A stretch of DNA of 38,792 nucleotides, taken from assembly GCF_001428895.1 (NCBI RefSeq), contig NZ_LMJA01000018.1, positions 38,391-77,182 on the forward strand. The letters are read 5' to 3'. The translations under genes were made by a program, and so were the position numbers. This DNA comes from Mycobacterium sp. Root265 (GTDB lineage: Bacteria > Actinomycetota > Actinomycetes > Mycobacteriales > Mycobacteriaceae). The notes under the pieces were generated by a model, which had not been told where the DNA came from, made no database searches, and saw nothing but the letters and a program-made list of their open reading frames with translations. Within the stretch, counting starts at the first letter, position 1, and each line of letters begins with the position of its first letter. Of the stretch, positions 28,816-35,605 are shown in pieces.

Positions 28816-30303
28816 GTGCTCACAACCCCGCAGCAGGAGCAGTCCGTGCTCGCCGCCCTGCGCTCACCACGACGATTGCGCACCGAGGTGCTCGCCGGGC
28901 TGGTGGTGGCGCTCGCCCTGATCCCGGAGGCGATCTCGTTCTCGATCATCGCCGGCGTCGATCCACGGATCGGGTTGTTCGCCTCGTTCACCATGGCCGT
29001 CACCATCGCCGTCGTCGGCGGCAGGCCCGCGATGATCAGCGCCGCTACCGGCGCCGTCGCGCTCGTCGTCGCGCCGCTGGTCCGAAGCCACGGCCTGGAT
29101 TACCTGATCGCGGCGGTGATCCTGGCCGGGGTCCTGCAGCTGATCCTCGGCGGCCTCGGTGTGGCCCGGCTGATGCGGTTCGTGCCGCGCAGCGTGATGG
29201 TGGGCTTCGTCAACGCGCTGGCGATCCTGATCTTCGTCTCCCAGATGCCGCACCTGCTGGGTGTCCCGTGGCTGGTGTACCCGATGGTCGCCGCCGGCAT
29301 CGTGCTGATGGTCGTGCTGCCCAAGGTCACCACGGTGATACCGGCACCCTTGGTGGCGATCGTGGTGTTGACCGCCGCCACGATCGGATTTGGTTGGGCC
29401 GTACCCGATGTCGGTGACGAGGGGCAGCTGCCGTCGAGCCTGCCGACCCTGCTCCTCCCGGATGTGCCCTGGACCTGGCAGACGCTGGGCGTCATCGCCC
29501 CCTACGCGCTGACCATGGCCATCGTGGGACTCCTGGAATCGCTGATGACCGCGAAACTGGTCGACGACATCACCGACACCCACTCCGACAAGTCCCGCGA
29601 GGCGGCCGGCCAGGGTGTCGCCAACATCGTCACCGGGTTCTTCGGCGGGATGGGCGGCTGCGCGATGATCGGCCAGACCATGATCAACGTCAAGGTCTCC
29701 GGCGCCCGCACCCGGATCTCGACGTTCCTGGCCGGGGCGTTCCTGCTCGGACTGGTGGTGGGGCTGGGCGACCTGGTCGCGCAGATCCCGATGGCCGCCT
29801 TGGTCGCCGTCATGATCATGGTGTCGGTGGCGACCCTGGACTGGCACAGCATCCACCCGAAGACGTTGCGCCGCATGCCCAAGAGCGAAACCGCGGTCAT
29901 GCTGGCCACCGTCGCGGTCACGGTGGCCACCGACAACCTCGCCTACGGGGTGGCGGTCGGCACGCTGACCGCCATGGTGTTGTTCGCCCGCCGGGTCGCC
30001 CACCTGACCGAGGTCGTCGACATCGCGCACCCGGACGACGACTCCCGGGTGTACGCGGTGCGGGGCGAATTGTTCTTCGCCTCCAGCAACGATCTGGTCT
30101 ATCAGTTCGACTACGTCGGCGACCCCACCAACATCGTCATCGATATGAGTGAGGCCAATGTCTGGGACGCCTCGACCGTGGCGAGCCTGGACGCGATTAC
30201 GACCAAATATGCGGCAAAGGGCAAGAAAGTCAGCATCATCGGGATGAACGAGCGGAGCGCGCAGCGTCACGCCCGGCTCAGTGGCCGGCTGGAGGGACAA
30301 TAG
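28816..30303 (+). CDS. SulP-family anion transporter with STAS domain
   Basis: A 495-residue transporter: about 10-14 spans in residues 15-395, then a C-terminal STAS domain (about 405-495: RVYAVRGELFFASSNDLVYQF, IVIDMSEANVWDASTVASLDAI). The segments GLVVALALIPEAISFSIIAGVDPRIGLF and GGMGGCAMIGQTMINVKVSGARTRIST are typical of the family, which carries sulfate, bicarbonate or other anions. GTG 28816 fits a leaderless start. The MerR gene follows at once and is probably co-transcribed. Confidence 0.92.
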   Translation: MLTTPQQEQSVLAALRSPRRLRTEVLAGLVVALALIPEAISFSIIAGVDPRIGLFASFTMAVTIAVVGGRPAMISAATGAVALVVAPLVRSHGLDYLIAAVILAGVLQLILGGLGVARLMRFVPRSVMVGFVNALAILIFVSQMPHLLGVPWLVYPMVAAGIVLMVVLPKVTTVIPAPLVAIVVLTAATIGFGWAVPDVGDEGQLPSSLPTLLLPDVPWTWQTLGVIAPYALTMAIVGLLESLMTAKLVDDITDTHSDKSREAAGQGVANIVTGFFGGMGGCAMIGQTMINVKVSGARTRISTFLAGAFLLGLVVGLGDLVAQIPMAALVAVMIMVSVATLDWHSIHPKTLRRMPKSETAVMLATVAVTVATDNLAYGVAVGTLTAMVLFARRVAHLTEVVDIAHPDDDSRVYAVRGELFFASSNDLVYQFDYVGDPTNIVIDMSEANVWDASTVASLDAITTKYAAKGKKVSIIGMNERSAQRHARLSGRLEGQ

Positions 30304-30304
30304 G

Positions 30305-30712
30305 ATGGCCGGCGACGCCGGTGATCGCGAACTGCTGCAGATCGGCGACGTGGCCGCCCGAACAGAACTGTCCATCAAGACGATTCGTCACTACGACGAT
30401 GTCGGGCTGGTCACCCCGTCGGCCCGCTCGGCGGGCGGCTTCCGGCTGTACACCGCAGGCGACGTCGACCGGCTGCTCTCGATCCGGCGGATGAAGCCAC
30501 TCGGCTTCACTCTCGAAGAGATGGGGGAGCTGCTCGACGCCCTCGACATCGTGCACCAGAGCGGATCAGCCGGCGAGCGGCGCGCGCAGGCGCTGAGCCG
30601 CCTCGCCGACTGCCACGAGCGCGCACAGCAGGCGTGCACCACGCTCGGCAGGCAACTCGCCTACGCCCGGGAACTCACCGCGCAACTGGCCGGCTACCGC
30701 GCTACTCGGTGA
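30305..30712 (+). CDS. MerR-family transcriptional regulator
   Basis: A 135-residue regulator. The N-terminal MerR helix-turn-helix is LLQIGDVAARTELSIKTIRHYDDVGLV with the wing SAGGFRLYTAGDVDRL. A dimerisation coiled coil follows (about 75-130). No metal-binding Cys cluster is seen; Cys87 and Cys95 (DCHERAQQAC) are the only cysteines, so the effector is unclear. ATG 30305 has GGAGGG 8 nt upstream, one base after the SulP stop. The 3' end overlaps convergent pncA by 11 bp. It may regulate the SulP gene. Confidence 0.87.
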   Translation: MAGDAGDRELLQIGDVAARTELSIKTIRHYDDVGLVTPSARSAGGFRLYTAGDVDRLLSIRRMKPLGFTLEEMGELLDALDIVHQSGSAGERRAQALSRLADCHERAQQACTTLGRQLAYARELTAQLAGYRATR

Positions 30713-31271: not shown

Positions 31272-32555
31272 TCACCCGCCGAAGAGCAGGTACAGGCCGG
31301 TGAATGTGTAGCCGACCATCACCAGCATCATCGTCAGCTGGCCGGTCATCTGATGGCCCTTGGGAAGCACCCGCAGCGCGCGGTCGTGCGCGGCGATGAC
31401 GCCGGCCACATGCCCGAGGAGCACGAACCCGACCTTCAGTGAGGCCAGTACCGACGGGTGCATGGACAACAGGTAATACACCTGGGCGTCAGGGGATCCC
31501 ATCAGGGCGTGCACGGTCTGCTGGCCCTTCTCGATGAGATAGGTGAGGTAGTGGGCGAAGACATAGCCGATGACGATCGGGATCAGCGAGTGCGCCATCA
31601 GGCCGGGCAACGCGCGGCGGCCCTCACGGTCCACACCTCCGGTCGCCGCTGCGGCCAGGCTGAAGGTCACCGCCACCACCGCGATGAACACCAGGAGGCC
31701 GACGGTCTTGTATCCGCTTGCGCCCCACGCGCTCGAGGTGTGGGAGTCCACGAAGTTCCGCCATCCGGGCATCGCCGAAAAACTGTCGAACGCGGTGGAT
31801 CCCAGCAGCACGGCCAGCACCGTCACGGTGCCGGGACGCACCGGTAGCGTCAGCAGCTGGTTGAACGGATTACCGATGGCGATGCGTCCGTCGGCGTTGC
31901 GGCGCCACGGTGCGCACCGGGAGGCGATCATGCTGTAGACCTCGAACGGGTCCGCACGCGCGCACCAGCGCGGTCCGCTCAGCAGGCCGCCCACGAGTGT
32001 CACCGCAAGGTAGATCAGCAGCCAGATCTCGACCGCGGTAAGCGATCCCGGATCGGGGCTGGCCAACTCGAGCCAGACGAAGGCGAACAATCCGGCGGCG
32101 GCGGGCCGGTAACCGAGCCGGCGCGGATAGCGATCGCGGGTGACGCGCAGCAGCCGCAGGACGGTGCGCACCGGCGATATCGCTCGCCACACCGGGCCCA
32201 GGAACAGCGACAGCGCCACCAGGCCGACCCACAACAGCACGTAGAAGACGCCGGGCAGCGCATTGCGGGAATCCTGCGGCCCGGTGACGGCCGCGACGGC
32301 CACCCACCCGGTGAACGCCAGGCCGGCCGCGGCGACCAGCCACCGGGTCAGCGATGCGTCGACGACGGTGGTGACCCAGCCCGGGAGGGGACGGCCCGGC
32401 GTGTCGGGATCGAAACGTGGTGTGCGCCAGGCCAGCGCGACCACTGCGAAGGTGAAGGTCAACGTCCACGCGGCGCCGACCACCGCGTAGGTGAACGGAA
32501 TGGGCAGATCGGCCGAGCCGCCCAGACCGTGGGCGAGGACCGCCGTGGAGGTCAC
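31272..32555 (-). CDS. Polytopic membrane protein of unknown function
   Basis: A 427-residue protein with about ten spans. The N-terminus, AHGLGGSADLPIPFTYAV, recalls a poorly studied family sometimes labelled fenitrothion hydrolase FedB; that name is recalled and tentative. His residues in or near the last spans (AHYLTYLIEKG, MHPSVLASLKVGFVLLGHVAGVIAAHD, GHQMTGQ) could bind a metal or heme. The ATG overlaps the stop of the cupredoxin-like lipoprotein gene (ATGA), so the two are coupled. It is the last gene of the four-gene membrane operon. Confidence 0.72.
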   Translation of the reverse strand: MTSTAVLAHGLGGSADLPIPFTYAVVGAAWTLTFTFAVVALAWRTPRFDPDTPGRPLPGWVTTVVDASLTRWLVAAAGLAFTGWVAVAAVTGPQDSRNALPGVFYVLLWVGLVALSLFLGPVWRAISPVRTVLRLLRVTRDRYPRRLGYRPAAAGLFAFVWLELASPDPGSLTAVEIWLLIYLAVTLVGGLLSGPRWCARADPFEVYSMIASRCAPWRRNADGRIAIGNPFNQLLTLPVRPGTVTVLAVLLGSTAFDSFSAMPGWRNFVDSHTSSAWGASGYKTVGLLVFIAVVAVTFSLAAAATGGVDREGRRALPGLMAHSLIPIVIGYVFAHYLTYLIEKGQQTVHALMGSPDAQVYYLLSMHPSVLASLKVGFVLLGHVAGVIAAHDRALRVLPKGHQMTGQLTMMLVMVGYTFTGLYLLFGG

Positions 32556-32959
32556 TGCACCGTGATGGTCGCGACGACGCGGTTCAGGTGGTGCAACTCG
32601 ACGTCGACCTTGCCGGGCACCTGGACCTCGAACTGAAAGGACTGCAGCGACTCGGGTTTCACGGCGAAGGTGTGCTCGGGACTGGCGTGCACGTGCAGTT
32701 CGTCCTCGGTGTCACTGGTGACCCGGATGACGATGGGCTGCTTCACCGCGGCCCGCACCTGCTGGTTGACCGGCGTCACCTGCCCGCCGGCGATGGTCAC
32801 GTCGATCACGACCCGTTCCGGCGGTGCCTGCTGATCGGAGAGTGCCGGCGCGGCGGTGGCCGCGGACGGTGCGGCCGGTTCCTCGGTGGAACCCGAGCAG
32901 CCCGCGGTGGCCAGCATGGCCGCCGCCGACACCACGGTCGCCGCGATCAGTGTCCTCAA
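32552..32959 (-). CDS. Cupredoxin-like lipoprotein
   Basis: A 135-residue exported protein with signal MRTLIAATVVSAAAMLATAGC and a probable lipid anchor at Cys21. After a Pro/Ala linker comes a beta-rich domain (about 48-135: VVIDVTIAGGQVTPVNQQVR, PIVIRVTSDTEDELHVHASP, then VPGKVDVELHHLNRVVATITV). The fold resembles cupredoxin domains of the EfeO type. It lacks the Cys-His-Met set of blue copper sites but has a His-rich face (HVH, EHTF, LHHLN) that could bind metal. TTG 32959 overlaps the stop of the 49-codon gene (TTGA), with GAGGAAA upstream. Confidence 0.75.
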   Translation of the reverse strand: MRTLIAATVVSAAAMLATAGCSGSTEEPAAPSAATAAPALSDQQAPPERVVIDVTIAGGQVTPVNQQVRAAVKQPIVIRVTSDTEDELHVHASPEHTFAVKPESLQSFQFEVQVPGKVDVELHHLNRVVATITVQ

Positions 32960-33105
32960 TCTGTTTCCTCACTTCGATTCTCGTCGTCGGGGTCGGGGTT
33001 GCGCCGGTCCCGGATGGCCACCCACGCCACCACCGCGGCGACCACCACGGCCGGGGCGAACGCGGGCAGCGCCAGCAGCAGGGAGTGATCGGCCAGGTAG
33101 GTCAC
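32956..33105 (-). CDS. 49-residue single-span membrane peptide
   Basis: GTG 33105 overlaps the stop of the large membrane gene (GTGA), and its TGA overlaps the TTG start of the lipoprotein gene (TTGA). The peptide begins MTYLADHSLLLALPAFAPAV, has one span (about 8-31) and ends in a charged tail, IRDRRNPDPDDENRSEETD. Exact fitting between two coupled genes is strong evidence that it is translated. The topology (short N-terminus, span, charged C-tail) suggests a small accessory subunit of the neighbouring membrane proteins. Confidence 0.75.
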   Translation of the reverse strand: MTYLADHSLLLALPAFAPAVVVAAVVAWVAIRDRRNPDPDDENRSEETD

Positions 33106-34934
33106 GCGAGCGGAACGGGCTGCTTGGTTTCCGCGCCGCTGTGAGCGCGCATCTCCCGGTCATTGATCCGGCCGGCCCCCCAGCTGAGCGCCGCGATCAG
33201 GATGAGCGAGCACAGCAACACCACCAATGATGCCGCGGTGAACAGCCAGCTCGGTACGTCCAGATTCCGTTCCCGCTGCAGCACACTGATTTCCGCGGTC
33301 AGATCCCGGTTCATCGACTCTTCTGCGGGCAGCTCGGTGGCACCGATGCCCGGGTCGGCGGGCAGGAACACCGGGACCGCGGCCATGGTGCGGCCGTCCT
33401 GAACCCGGATCAGTGTCTTCCAACTGCCCCAGACCGGTATCGGCCGGGTGGTGCGGTAGTGGCCGGGCCCGAGGCGTTCGAGCTTGTCCACGATCAGCCC
33501 GCGCTCGTTGTCGAGGCCGCCCTGCCAGGACAGCATCGAAATCCATTCGGGATCATCGCTGATCAGGTCGGCCGGGGAGATCCGGATGTCGGCGCTCACG
33601 AGTCGTTGCCCAGCGGGGCTGGGTAATTCGGTGAGCGTGATCTGCGCGCCGGCGTTCGGCGGCACCGAGATGTTCAGGCCGTTGCCGACCGCTGCGCCGA
33701 TGGTCAGCACCGTCAGCACCACGACTGCGACGCCGGCGCCGCGCCGGGGCAACGGACGGCCGGTGAGCACGGTGGCGAGTAACCCGCCGCACATGCCCAT
33801 CAGCACGGCCACCGGCACCGAGGTGGCCAGGGCTTCGACCCACATGGCCGCCGGCCACGGGTACATGAAGACCGCGTCGATCCAGAACGACTCCAGCCAC
33901 AAGCCGACCGTGCCGATACCGGCACCGGCGACCGCGCCGAACAGAATGGGGCGCTGCAGAAGTGGTGTCAGGGCCAGTAGTTCGACCACCAGGGCCGGGC
34001 CGAGGTAGAGCGCGAACCAGCTGTAGGGGGCGCCGAGCACCGGGCCGACCGCGACCGCGACGATCCCGCGGATCAACAGTGCGAACAGCACCGCGGCCAG
34101 CGCGGCGCCCCTGCCGAGGGTGATCCGGGCGGCGACCAGCGCCAGCGCGGCGGCGGCGGCGATCAGCATCGGGTGCAGCACCAGCCGGAACTGCTCGATG
34201 CCGAAGTCGTATTCGACGGGGAACACCGACATACCGATGACGAGGCCGCCGAAGGCGAAGTAGCGCAGGATCTTCCGCGGGGCCACCTCGGCGTCGGGGC
34301 CCATCGCGATACGGCCCTCGTGCTCCAGCAGCAGGACGGCGACCAGGGACAGGCCGGCGCCGCCGATCAGCATCAGGTGGGTCGGACCCCAGAGTGTGAC
34401 GTCCTGACCGAAGATGCGGTGCCAGACGTCGTCCAGTGGGAAGCCGATGAGCGCGTACAGACCGCATGCGGCCATCAACACCCCGCCCACGGGCGCATAC
34501 CAGGTTCTGGTGATCTTCAGCGCGGCCGGACCCGGCTTCTCATAGGGCAGGATGATGGCCAGCGATCCGGCGATGAACAGCAGGAACAGCCCGACCAGGA
34601 TGAAGTAGTGCGCCGGGTTGGCCAGCGGACCGGAGTCGCGGCCCTTGCCGATGTGCAGGCTGACATCCCAGATGAAGCCGAACATCGCGCAGATGATGGT
34701 CGAGGTGAACAGCAATGTCGGCAGCGCCACCCAGGGTGGCCGCTTCATCTTCACCCCGACCTTGTTGGCGAGCGTGTCCAGCCAGGTGATCCGCCGCGTG
34801 CGATGCAGGATGCCGATCCACAACAGCCCGGCGGTGATGATGCCGGCGGCGACCGAGACGCCGATGATCTGATCGAGATCCGCGCCGCCACCTTCGGTCC
34901 CCGCCTGCGCCAACACGCTCAACGTGCCTGACAT
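33102..34934 (-). CDS. Large polytopic membrane protein with extracytoplasmic domain
   Basis: A 610-residue protein from ATG 34934 (GTG 34940 is possible). Residues about 15-430 hold some 11-12 spans, with HIGKGRD, DDVWHRIFGQ and LHPMLIAAAAA carrying membrane-edge His residues. Residues about 430-560 form a soluble domain (ISVPPNAGAQITLTELPSPA, then RTTRPIPVWGSWKTLIRVQDGR) with a CopC/YtkA-like beta-sandwich flavour. A last span precedes the polar C-terminus. No family is recognised with certainty. It heads the four-gene operon; a TTAC-N6-GTAA repeat lies about 30 bp upstream. Confidence 0.78.
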   Translation of the reverse strand: MSGTLSVLAQAGTEGGGADLDQIIGVSVAAGIITAGLLWIGILHRTRRITWLDTLANKVGVKMKRPPWVALPTLLFTSTIICAMFGFIWDVSLHIGKGRDSGPLANPAHYFILVGLFLLFIAGSLAIILPYEKPGPAALKITRTWYAPVGGVLMAACGLYALIGFPLDDVWHRIFGQDVTLWGPTHLMLIGGAGLSLVAVLLLEHEGRIAMGPDAEVAPRKILRYFAFGGLVIGMSVFPVEYDFGIEQFRLVLHPMLIAAAAALALVAARITLGRGAALAAVLFALLIRGIVAVAVGPVLGAPYSWFALYLGPALVVELLALTPLLQRPILFGAVAGAGIGTVGLWLESFWIDAVFMYPWPAAMWVEALATSVPVAVLMGMCGGLLATVLTGRPLPRRGAGVAVVVLTVLTIGAAVGNGLNISVPPNAGAQITLTELPSPAGQRLVSADIRISPADLISDDPEWISMLSWQGGLDNERGLIVDKLERLGPGHYRTTRPIPVWGSWKTLIRVQDGRTMAAVPVFLPADPGIGATELPAEESMNRDLTAEISVLQRERNLDVPSWLFTAASLVVLLCSLILIAALSWGAGRINDREMRAHSGAETKQPVPLA

Positions 34935-34962
34935 GCCCACCCCCGTTTACGACCCTGCGGAT

Positions 34963-34976
34963 TTACTGGTCGGTAA
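34963..34976. promoter_or_regulatory. TetR-like inverted repeat in divergent region
   Basis: TTAC-TGGTCG-GTAA has matching 4-bp arms and a partly symmetric centre. It lies between the membrane operon and the papain-like gene. TTACnnnnnnGTAA is a common TetR-type operator form. Assignment by symmetry only. Confidence 0.4.
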
Positions 34977-35021
34977 TGTTGCCAGAAACCGATACCCGAT
35001 ACCAGGGGTACCAGAAGTGGC

Positions 35022-35027
35022 TACCCT
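35022..35027 (+). promoter_or_regulatory. Leaderless -10 box TACCCT for papain-like gene
   Basis: TACCCT lies 8 nt before ATG 35036, supporting that start over the ATG at 34976 in the same frame. Confidence 0.45.
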
Positions 35028-35035
35028 GGACGTCG

Positions 35036-35605
35036 ATGAAGTTCGCCGGTCTGCACCTGCGGCAACGTGACGGCATCAGCTGTGGTCCCTCGGTCGCGGT
35101 GATGGCCACCGCGTTGCTGGCCCCCGACTACGGCACCCCGCTGGCCGGCGCCGGCGCGGCGTCCTGGTTCGACGCCGAGCAGGCACGCGTCCATCACGCG
35201 GTGAACCGGATCTGGCCCCGGCGTCTCGGCATGACGCCCCGCGGCCTGGCGGGCGCCATCAACCGGCACAGCCCGGTCCGATATCGATGGCGGTTGTGCC
35301 GGGGCCTACTGCGCAGAACAGATCCACTCGGCGACGTGCTGGCAGCCGTGCACGACGGCTTTCCGGTCGCGATGCTGGTCGGCGGGTTCATCCCGCGGCA
35401 CTGGGTGCTCTTCGTCGGCGGGCGGGCCGGGGCGGATCAATTGCGTTGTTACGAGCCGACATCGGGGGAGACGCGTCCGGTGGAGGTGGTGCGCGTGCAG
35501 CGCGCCGAGCTGACCGGCCTGGGCTTCCCGCGGCCGTTCGCGTTCGTCCTGCCCGGTCCGGAGCGGCCTTGGCCGCGTTGCGCCTCCCAGCCGGTCGAAC
35601 TATAG
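35036..35605 (+). CDS. Papain-like (C39-like) cysteine peptidase or transferase
   Basis: A 189-residue protein starting MKFAGLHL. Gln10 and Cys16 in LRQRDGISCGPS have the Q-x5-C spacing of papain-like enzymes, and CGPS is typical of C39-like proteins. His122 (IPRHWVLFVGG) is the likely second catalytic residue, followed by an acidic residue in YEPTSGE. There is no signal peptide, so it acts in the cytoplasm or via partners. It could be a peptidase, an amidase or an acyltransferase. An upstream in-frame ATG (34976) adds 20 residues but falls in the operator-like repeat. It lies before, and 52 bp from, the glycosyltransferase gene. Confidence 0.7.
   Translation: MKFAGLHLRQRDGISCGPSVAVMATALLAPDYGTPLAGAGAASWFDAEQARVHHAVNRIWPRRLGMTPRGLAGAINRHSPVRYRWRLCRGLLRRTDPLGDVLAAVHDGFPVAMLVGGFIPRHWVLFVGGRAGADQLRCYEPTSGETRPVEVVRVQRAELTGLGFPRPFAFVLPGPERPWPRCASQPVEL

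Follow-up and report, generated by a model that had tools for sequence, protein, structure and literature searches.

Four overlapping minus-strand genes in the soil mycobacterium Mycobacterium sp. Root265, here called A, B, C and D, raise the question of which membrane system they encode. They lie at positions 31272-34940 of the window, i.e. the 38,792-nucleotide stretch of contig NZ_LMJA01000018.1 analysed here, and an initial annotation had read them as a translationally coupled operon handling copper or iron at the envelope, with no family firmly recognised. Copper membrane monooxygenases (CuMMOs) drive methane and ammonia oxidation, and the origin of their subunit C (PmoC, AmoC or HmoC) and the roles of its copper sites CuC and CuD are debated. 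We consider it roughly an even call that A-B-C-D encode a copper-dependent membrane complex, in which A is a remote homologue of PmoC, is perhaps an oxygenase and is served by copper supplied through C and D.

A coupled operon conserved as a unit

All three gene junctions are overlaps, as first noted, with the letters GTGA (A/B), TTGA (B/C) and GTGA (C/D), the last of which had been given as ATGA. Across loci, with start codons picked mechanically and genes in unannotated loci called likewise, a spacing of -4 nt dominated the junctions measured, namely 60/68 for C/D, 29/42 for A/B and 27/35 for B/C. The scan of named genomes yielded at least 572 relatives of A, and the counts per locus rest on the best 80 loci, which come from Mycobacterium, Mycolicibacterium, an uncultured member of Mycobacteriaceae, Gordonia, Williamsia and one Kitasatospora record; the closest named loci among the matches listed are those of Mycolicibacterium sp. 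P9-22, M. frederiksbergense and Mycobacterium sp. MBM, with A 92-94% identical. A and D occurred together in 78 of the best 80 loci, with B detected in 69 and C in 70, so both the coupled operon and the joint conservation of its genes are borne out.

The order A-B-C-D was found in 36 of the 80 loci, B-A-C-D in 25 and A-C-D without detected B in 9, while the rarer arrangements were A-B-D without detected C (7, comprising three Gordonia, three Williamsia and the Kitasatospora record), A-D (1), A alone (1) and B-A only (1, on a 3.8-kb contig). A further order, A-C-D-B, was seen at locus L196 in another family of the same class. Flanking genes varied between the locus groups (22 of the 80 loci gene-called, among those listed). 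Of 396 genomes from the phylum, 45 had A or a near relative, 83 had D and 23 had both (hypergeometric P 1.5e-6); with Mycobacteriaceae set aside, the corresponding numbers were 32, 70 and 10 (P 0.048). Thus, co-occurrence and gene order indicate that the four genes form a unit in Mycobacteriales, and that A and D also occur apart. Coupling and joint inheritance are the two grounds on which a four-protein complex is suggested. The Kitasatospora locus (L087, Kitasatospora arboriphila NRRL B-24581), in which A is 67% identical to that of the window, may reflect horizontal transfer or a mislabelled genome.

Protein A and subunit C of the copper monooxygenases

By direct searches none of the proteins was placed: in Pfam and NCBIfam no match to any of the four rose above cut-off, no well-characterised unrelated system being matched by the whole proteins, and phmmer against the PDB was empty or insignificant for A, C and D. 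The lack of a firm family thus persisted in direct Pfam, NCBIfam and phmmer searches; at the profile level it did not persist for A, which appears to be a remote homologue of CuMMO subunit C.

The likeness lies in two tandem motifs of the form [DN]-x3-H-x5-[DE]...P-x-H (Table 1), the same motif having been spotted during the alignment of HmoC proteins encoded near D homologues. According to passages of PMC12576850, Asp156/His160/His173 of PmoC form CuC and Asn227/His231/His245 form CuD. In a joint MAFFT alignment, the CuC columns read D/H/H in 7/7 PmoC proteins and 30/30 A domains (D92/H96/H111 in A), and the CuD columns read N/H/H in 7/7 PmoC proteins and D/H/H in 30/30 A domains, with both His kept. 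The aspartate of the RD pair is D in 26 and E in 4 of the 30 A domains, and the Glu of the second PmoC motif is Asp in all 30. The distance between motif starts is 73 residues in the PmoC of NBB4, 75 in the A relative of locus L045 and 78 in A, and a helix-motif-helix-helix-motif-helix order is common to A and PmoC by one hydropathy method, which would put the motifs on the same membrane face with two helices between them. Such conservation suggests that A binds copper at two sites.

Profile searches lend this homology good support. Shorter relatives of A (398-497 residues), reached via weak matches, were joined to the long A set by hhalign (E 2.6e-22, probability 99.5%) and share with it the motifs WDxxxH...RD...PxH and D-x3-H-x3-G-x-D...PxH; both motifs occur in L045:3759-5252, L048:4716-6173, L047, L049 and L238-L243, and the L045 relative adjoins a Transglut_core protein. 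When a four-sequence profile of the short forms was run against the PDB, the AmoC chains 9cl6_C, 9pxf_G and 9leg_C headed the five matches at E<=10, with E 0.16-0.28 and the motif as the aligned part. A 30-sequence profile of A domains, with no PmoC included, gave a sole match at E<=10 among 177,635 PDB sequences, i.e. AmoC 9cl6_C at E 0.0015. The reverse search was made without filters by a seven-protein PmoC/AmoC profile on 11,648 open reading frames (ORFs) from the collected loci, and it ranked the A relatives L048/L237 (one gene, E 0.0035), L240, L049, L047, L243 and L197/L244 (one gene) after the seven true PmoCs and ahead of the first unrelated ORF (E 0.64), below which A-type and unrelated ORFs were mixed. 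The alignment of L048 to the PmoC profile ran over 102 residues, was broken by two gaps of one residue each and kept the six ligands in register; the best Pfam family of L048 was AmoC (E 0.036), spanning both sites, with 13.9 bits against the PF04896 cut-off of 26.7. As a control, sequences were shuffled in 10-residue windows: the 30 domains, with a mean of 4.8 and a best of 17.8, exceeded on both measures every one of the 200 shuffled sets, in which means reached at most -0.7 and single scores at most 9.8, some single domains falling inside the shuffled range.

A differs from subunit C in its 612 residues, its 13 helices predicted by averaged hydropathy, the CuD replacement of Asn by Asp, a score under the Pfam cut-off and an external segment. 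The last, residues 421-564 between helices 12 and 13, agrees by hydropathy with the external domain first proposed, and its profile had no significant match in the PDB. A third conserved outer motif, E243/D245/Q250, was invariant in 14/14 long A proteins by alignment and in 61/61 A proteins, and was not seen in PmoC.

Proteins C and D and their copper-linked neighbourhoods

C is the His-containing lipoprotein that had been anticipated: the lipobox Cys is present in 39/40 sequences (the remaining one truncated), H89, H91 and E121 are invariant and H123 is found in 39/40. It was first described as cupredoxin-like, for which there is a below-threshold match to Cupredoxin_1 (PF13473; E 0.07, 13.6 bits versus a cut-off of 27) besides the conserved His ligands, and a 40-sequence C profile found no significant match in the PDB. 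In L178 a C-type domain is fused within one ORF to a PCuAC-like region. C would be a surface lipoprotein carrying copper, and B may be a small assembly or stability subunit.

For D, averaged hydropathy gave 10 helices; of its conserved His, H9 would be external, H335 close to the outer face, H382 embedded in the membrane and H390 close to the inner face. Thirteen D-family members gave nothing convincing against Pfam, with no CopD or Caa3_CtaG at E<=0.1. D as PmoC or CtaG was rejected, profile support being nil with shallow profiles and hhalign against two CtaG proteins likewise nil. The N-terminal A-H9-G of D resembles the A-H48-G-E of PmoB and possibly provides an N-terminal His ligand; rhizobial and haloarchaeal D proteins have AHG after an apparent signal peptide, as in PmoB.

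The neighbourhoods supplied the link to copper. Among 72,556 plasmid records, D homologues were found on 59 and C on 8, all 8 also having D. PmoC was found on 10 records, and the 4/4 actinobacterial ones (M. chubuense NBB4, M. dioxanotrophicus PH-06, Rhodococcus WAY2 and Rhodococcus ZPP) also bear C and D, at distances of about 1 to 10 kb; none of the 6 proteobacterial PmoC records is among the 59 that bear D. Elsewhere D adjoins CopC (4-nt overlap, L193), Caa3_CtaG (overlapping, L188), SCO1/SenC (L189, L195), a plastocyanin-type protein (L216), PCuAC (Sulfitobacter) and, in M. gallinarum, CopC plus a cytochrome oxidase assembly protein. By phmmer, 19 copper or metal queries matched 6/20 D loci and 0/20 control regions of the same genomes, 5 of the queries having been drawn from those D loci and the other 14 alone matching 3/20 (L178, L188, L193). 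A comparison of neighbours by Pfam, which covered the 25 commonest families of each set, was set aside as a control for that reason. Haloarchaeal homologues of the same D family (about 25-31% identity) also stand beside metal-handling genes, namely those for Iron_transport-domain proteins (PF10634)/DUF7350 and in some cases P-type ATPases, HiPIP or COX15; on haloarchaeal D plasmids, however, C was not found, A being on two plasmid records only, neither haloarchaeal, and the partners belong to other families.

Judged by these neighbourhoods C and D are a copper-linked pair, with a putative role in supply. Copper helpers PmoD, CopC, CopD and PCuAC are described for methanotroph pmo operons in passages of PMC6189053, and C-D accompany CuMMO genes on actinobacterial plasmids likewise; unlike PmoD as described in those passages, C is without CxnC-type Cys ligands, and D is without any Pfam family, CopD and CtaG included. 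We propose that C-D may be the actinobacterial counterpart of these helpers. D would be the partner whose 10 helices hold conserved His and acidic residues as a path across the membrane, outer face to inner, and would import copper or load it into a client membrane protein; the client would be A here, a CuMMO in relatives that oxidise alkanes and, in other settings, perhaps haem-copper oxidases.

Around the operon, a conserved 22-bp element stands just upstream of A and was kept across differing neighbourhoods (Table 1). Its exact pattern CTGGCAAYATTACYGNNNNGTA occurred in 28/148 loci, always upstream of A, two of these being the window's own copy and the rest 26 further loci; in B-A-C-D loci a different common stretch, GTAGGGTAACGG, lies upstream of B. 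The own genome holds one exact copy of the element, and a regulon was rejected, as <=3 mismatches gave 6 sites and the reversed control gave 4. None of three guessed TetR operator strings occurred in the papers searched. The C-D pair adjoins a gene annotated sigC in NBB4 and PH-06, and SigC of M. tuberculosis is reported as a copper-starvation factor (PMC7924339); a SigC link was dropped, one SigC promoter consensus being found upstream in 3/81 loci and absent from the window.

The 3' neighbour of the operon is an Isochorismatase-domain gene, nicotinamidase-like and here called pncA. It lies 3' of D in 31/80 loci, yet is absent from loci in other neighbourhoods, for which reason it is regarded as mere neighbourhood and a nicotinate link was discarded. 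At L036, L150 and L151, alphaproteobacterial D homologues cluster with 6-hydroxynicotinate reductase, with genes of molybdenum-hydroxylase type and with an ABC transporter of the branched-chain amino-acid type, and nicotinate dehydrogenase or 6-hydroxynicotinate reductase is near some alphaproteobacterial D genes. The divergent 209-residue gene upstream of A is near the operon in 30/80 loci, mostly alongside pncA.

Table 1. Coordinates of the operon, its motifs and nearby features in the window
Feature	Positions	Strand	Description
Gene A	33102-34940	-	612 residues from GTG, 610 from ATG at 34934; polytopic membrane protein, putative remote relative of CuMMO subunit C (PmoC/AmoC)
Gene B	32956-33105	-	49 residues; predicted one-helix peptide; detected in 69/80 loci, 22 sequences aligned
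Gene C	32552-32959	-	135 residues; lipoprotein with SDxxDELHVH...VELH motif, candidate copper carrier
Gene D	31272-32555	-	427 residues; predicted 10-helix protein with conserved H9, H335, H382, H390, E163, D257; copper-linked family
CuC-like motif, A residues 92-111	34608-34667	-	D92-x3-H96-x4-R101D102...P109-x-H111; invariant in 61/61 A proteins
CuD-like motif, A residues 170-188	34377-34433	-	D170-x3-H174-x5-D180...P186-x-H188; Asp replaces PmoC Asn227; ligands invariant in 61/61
Third outer motif, A residues 243-250	34191-34214	-	E243, D245, Q250
External segment, A residues 421-564	33249-33680	-	Predicted by hydropathy, between helices 12 and 13
Upstream element	34964-34985	-	Conserved 22-bp CTGGCAACATTACCGACCAGTA just upstream of A; candidate promoter/operator
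209-residue gene	34976-35605		Divergent, upstream of A; without Pfam match
MerR-type regulator gene	30281-30712		Past pncA, adjoining the SulP-type transporter gene; weak CueR similarity (70 of 147 bits)
SulP-type transporter gene	28816-30303		Past pncA

Oxygenase, copper homeostasis and other readings

In the favoured reading, the two motifs of A would correspond to CuC and CuD and lie at the outer face of the membrane, A having extra helices and the external segment besides, and A would most likely use O2 at its copper sites to oxidise a substrate that is small or membrane-soluble. The strongest competitor, which we hold to be rather unlikely, is that the operon serves copper homeostasis only, with A binding copper without catalysis, D acting as a transporter and the whole acquiring, storing or delivering copper. 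It accords with the copper-handling neighbours of C-D (CopC, CtaG, SCO, PCuAC), with an A homologue that adjoins CopC on the JOB5 plasmid NZ_CP126903.1, with the conserved His of D spanning the outer to the inner face and with the many A proteins that have no adjoining oxidoreductase gene. The CuD counterpart, however, corresponds to the site suggested as the active site of pMMO in passages of PMC12576850, and the immediate neighbours of A at three non-mycobacterial loci also argue otherwise: in L058 and L059 an FMO-like monooxygenase gene shares a 4-nt overlap with A, and in L206 an alpha/beta-hydrolase gene does the same, an arrangement commoner among catabolic enzymes. An FMO-like gene is also near A in L204. 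MerR-type matches were found in 17/30 and FMO matches in 6/30 non-mycobacterial A loci versus 0/20 control regions for both, counts that are only indicative because the queries came partly from these loci, several matches are long ORFs overlapping A, and the control regions were drawn for D loci, mostly in other genomes. Such a context looks less like that of a transporter than that of a regulated catabolic oxygenase, which is the main reason for taking A, with modest confidence, as perhaps an oxygenase.

Several results weigh against the PmoC-like oxygenase. The A of the window has no Pfam match at E<=1, even the best relative, L048, falls short of the PF04896 cut-off, and a PF04896 search of the own genome at E<=10 came back empty; the reverse search returned just 15 of 190 A-type ORFs at E<=10, that of the window not included. 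Stray Pfam matches equal or better than the AmoC match of L048 arose among the 30 domains, MadL at 0.0079 in L258 and LtrA (PF06772) at 6.1e-6 in the A-type domain L199:7041-7778, under cut-off, one domain each. By hhalign, A domains matched PmoC at E 3.8e-4 and 2.8e-4 with low probabilities (36% and 41%), the long-A set alone was not significant (0.6%), and two of three alignments put the second motif of A on the first of PmoC, a swapped pairing that is consistent with repeated motifs and inconsistent with the six-ligand register. Differing from CuMMO enzymes built from xmoC/xmoA/xmoB, the operon shows no XmoA- or XmoB-like protein beside A; no CuMMO family was found among the operon proteins and four neighbours scanned, XmoA and XmoB not having been searched elsewhere in the genome, and D as PmoA and C as PmoB were rejected, profile support being nil with shallow profiles. 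Some D and A loci, moreover, have no nearby copper gene, certain D loci showing no metal gene of any kind, and some have iron genes.

The low hhalign probabilities, the differing motif pairing, the shortness of the similarity core and the LtrA match would fit a different explanation, that A is unrelated to PmoC, being a different polytopic metal protein that came by its D-x3-H...P-x-H motifs through convergence. We judge this improbable, as it would have to account for two motifs with near-equal internal spacing, similar mutual spacing and the same helix order, for AmoC as the only or top PDB match, for the reverse ranking and for the shuffle control. Metal handling at the envelope, as first proposed, is supported, and of the two metals named the context points mainly to copper, iron retaining a share because some loci carry siderophore or iron-transport genes: siderophore-interacting (SIP) and Peripla_BP_2 genes stand beside B-A in L055 (L062 resembling it by eye) and Peripla_BP_2 lies 3' of D in L060. 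An operon for iron uptake or reduction, in which copper is no more than a cofactor, is the least probable alternative, given these genes and the haloarchaeal Iron_transport neighbours of D on one side and, on the other, the PmoC-like copper ligands of A, the C-D genes on all the actinobacterial PmoC plasmids and the copper chaperones adjoining D elsewhere.

A bolder extension of the copper-oxygenase reading, which we put forward only tentatively, is that A represents a new class of copper membrane oxygenase outside the known CuMMOs, free of XmoA and XmoB and loaded by C-D, that the short forms keep its two-site core, that the C-D pair also serves canonical actinobacterial CuMMOs, and that the family supplies the outgroup so far lacking for the origin of methane and ammonia oxidation. 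In passages of PMC6215863 the most distant XmoC group is thaumarchaeotal, and passages of PMC9038741 report that divergent archaeal CuMMOs keep the C site; no report of PmoC relatives of the present kind was found in the open-access papers searched, a set that misses most subscription papers. If the reading is right, a PmoC-like family free of XmoA and XmoB, present in many mycobacteria and other actinobacteria, would offer an outgroup for subunit C and a natural reduced context for probing what the two copper sites do. C-D would be a candidate copper-insertion module for CuMMOs, and genes now annotated as hypothetical gain a likely metal and a testable role.

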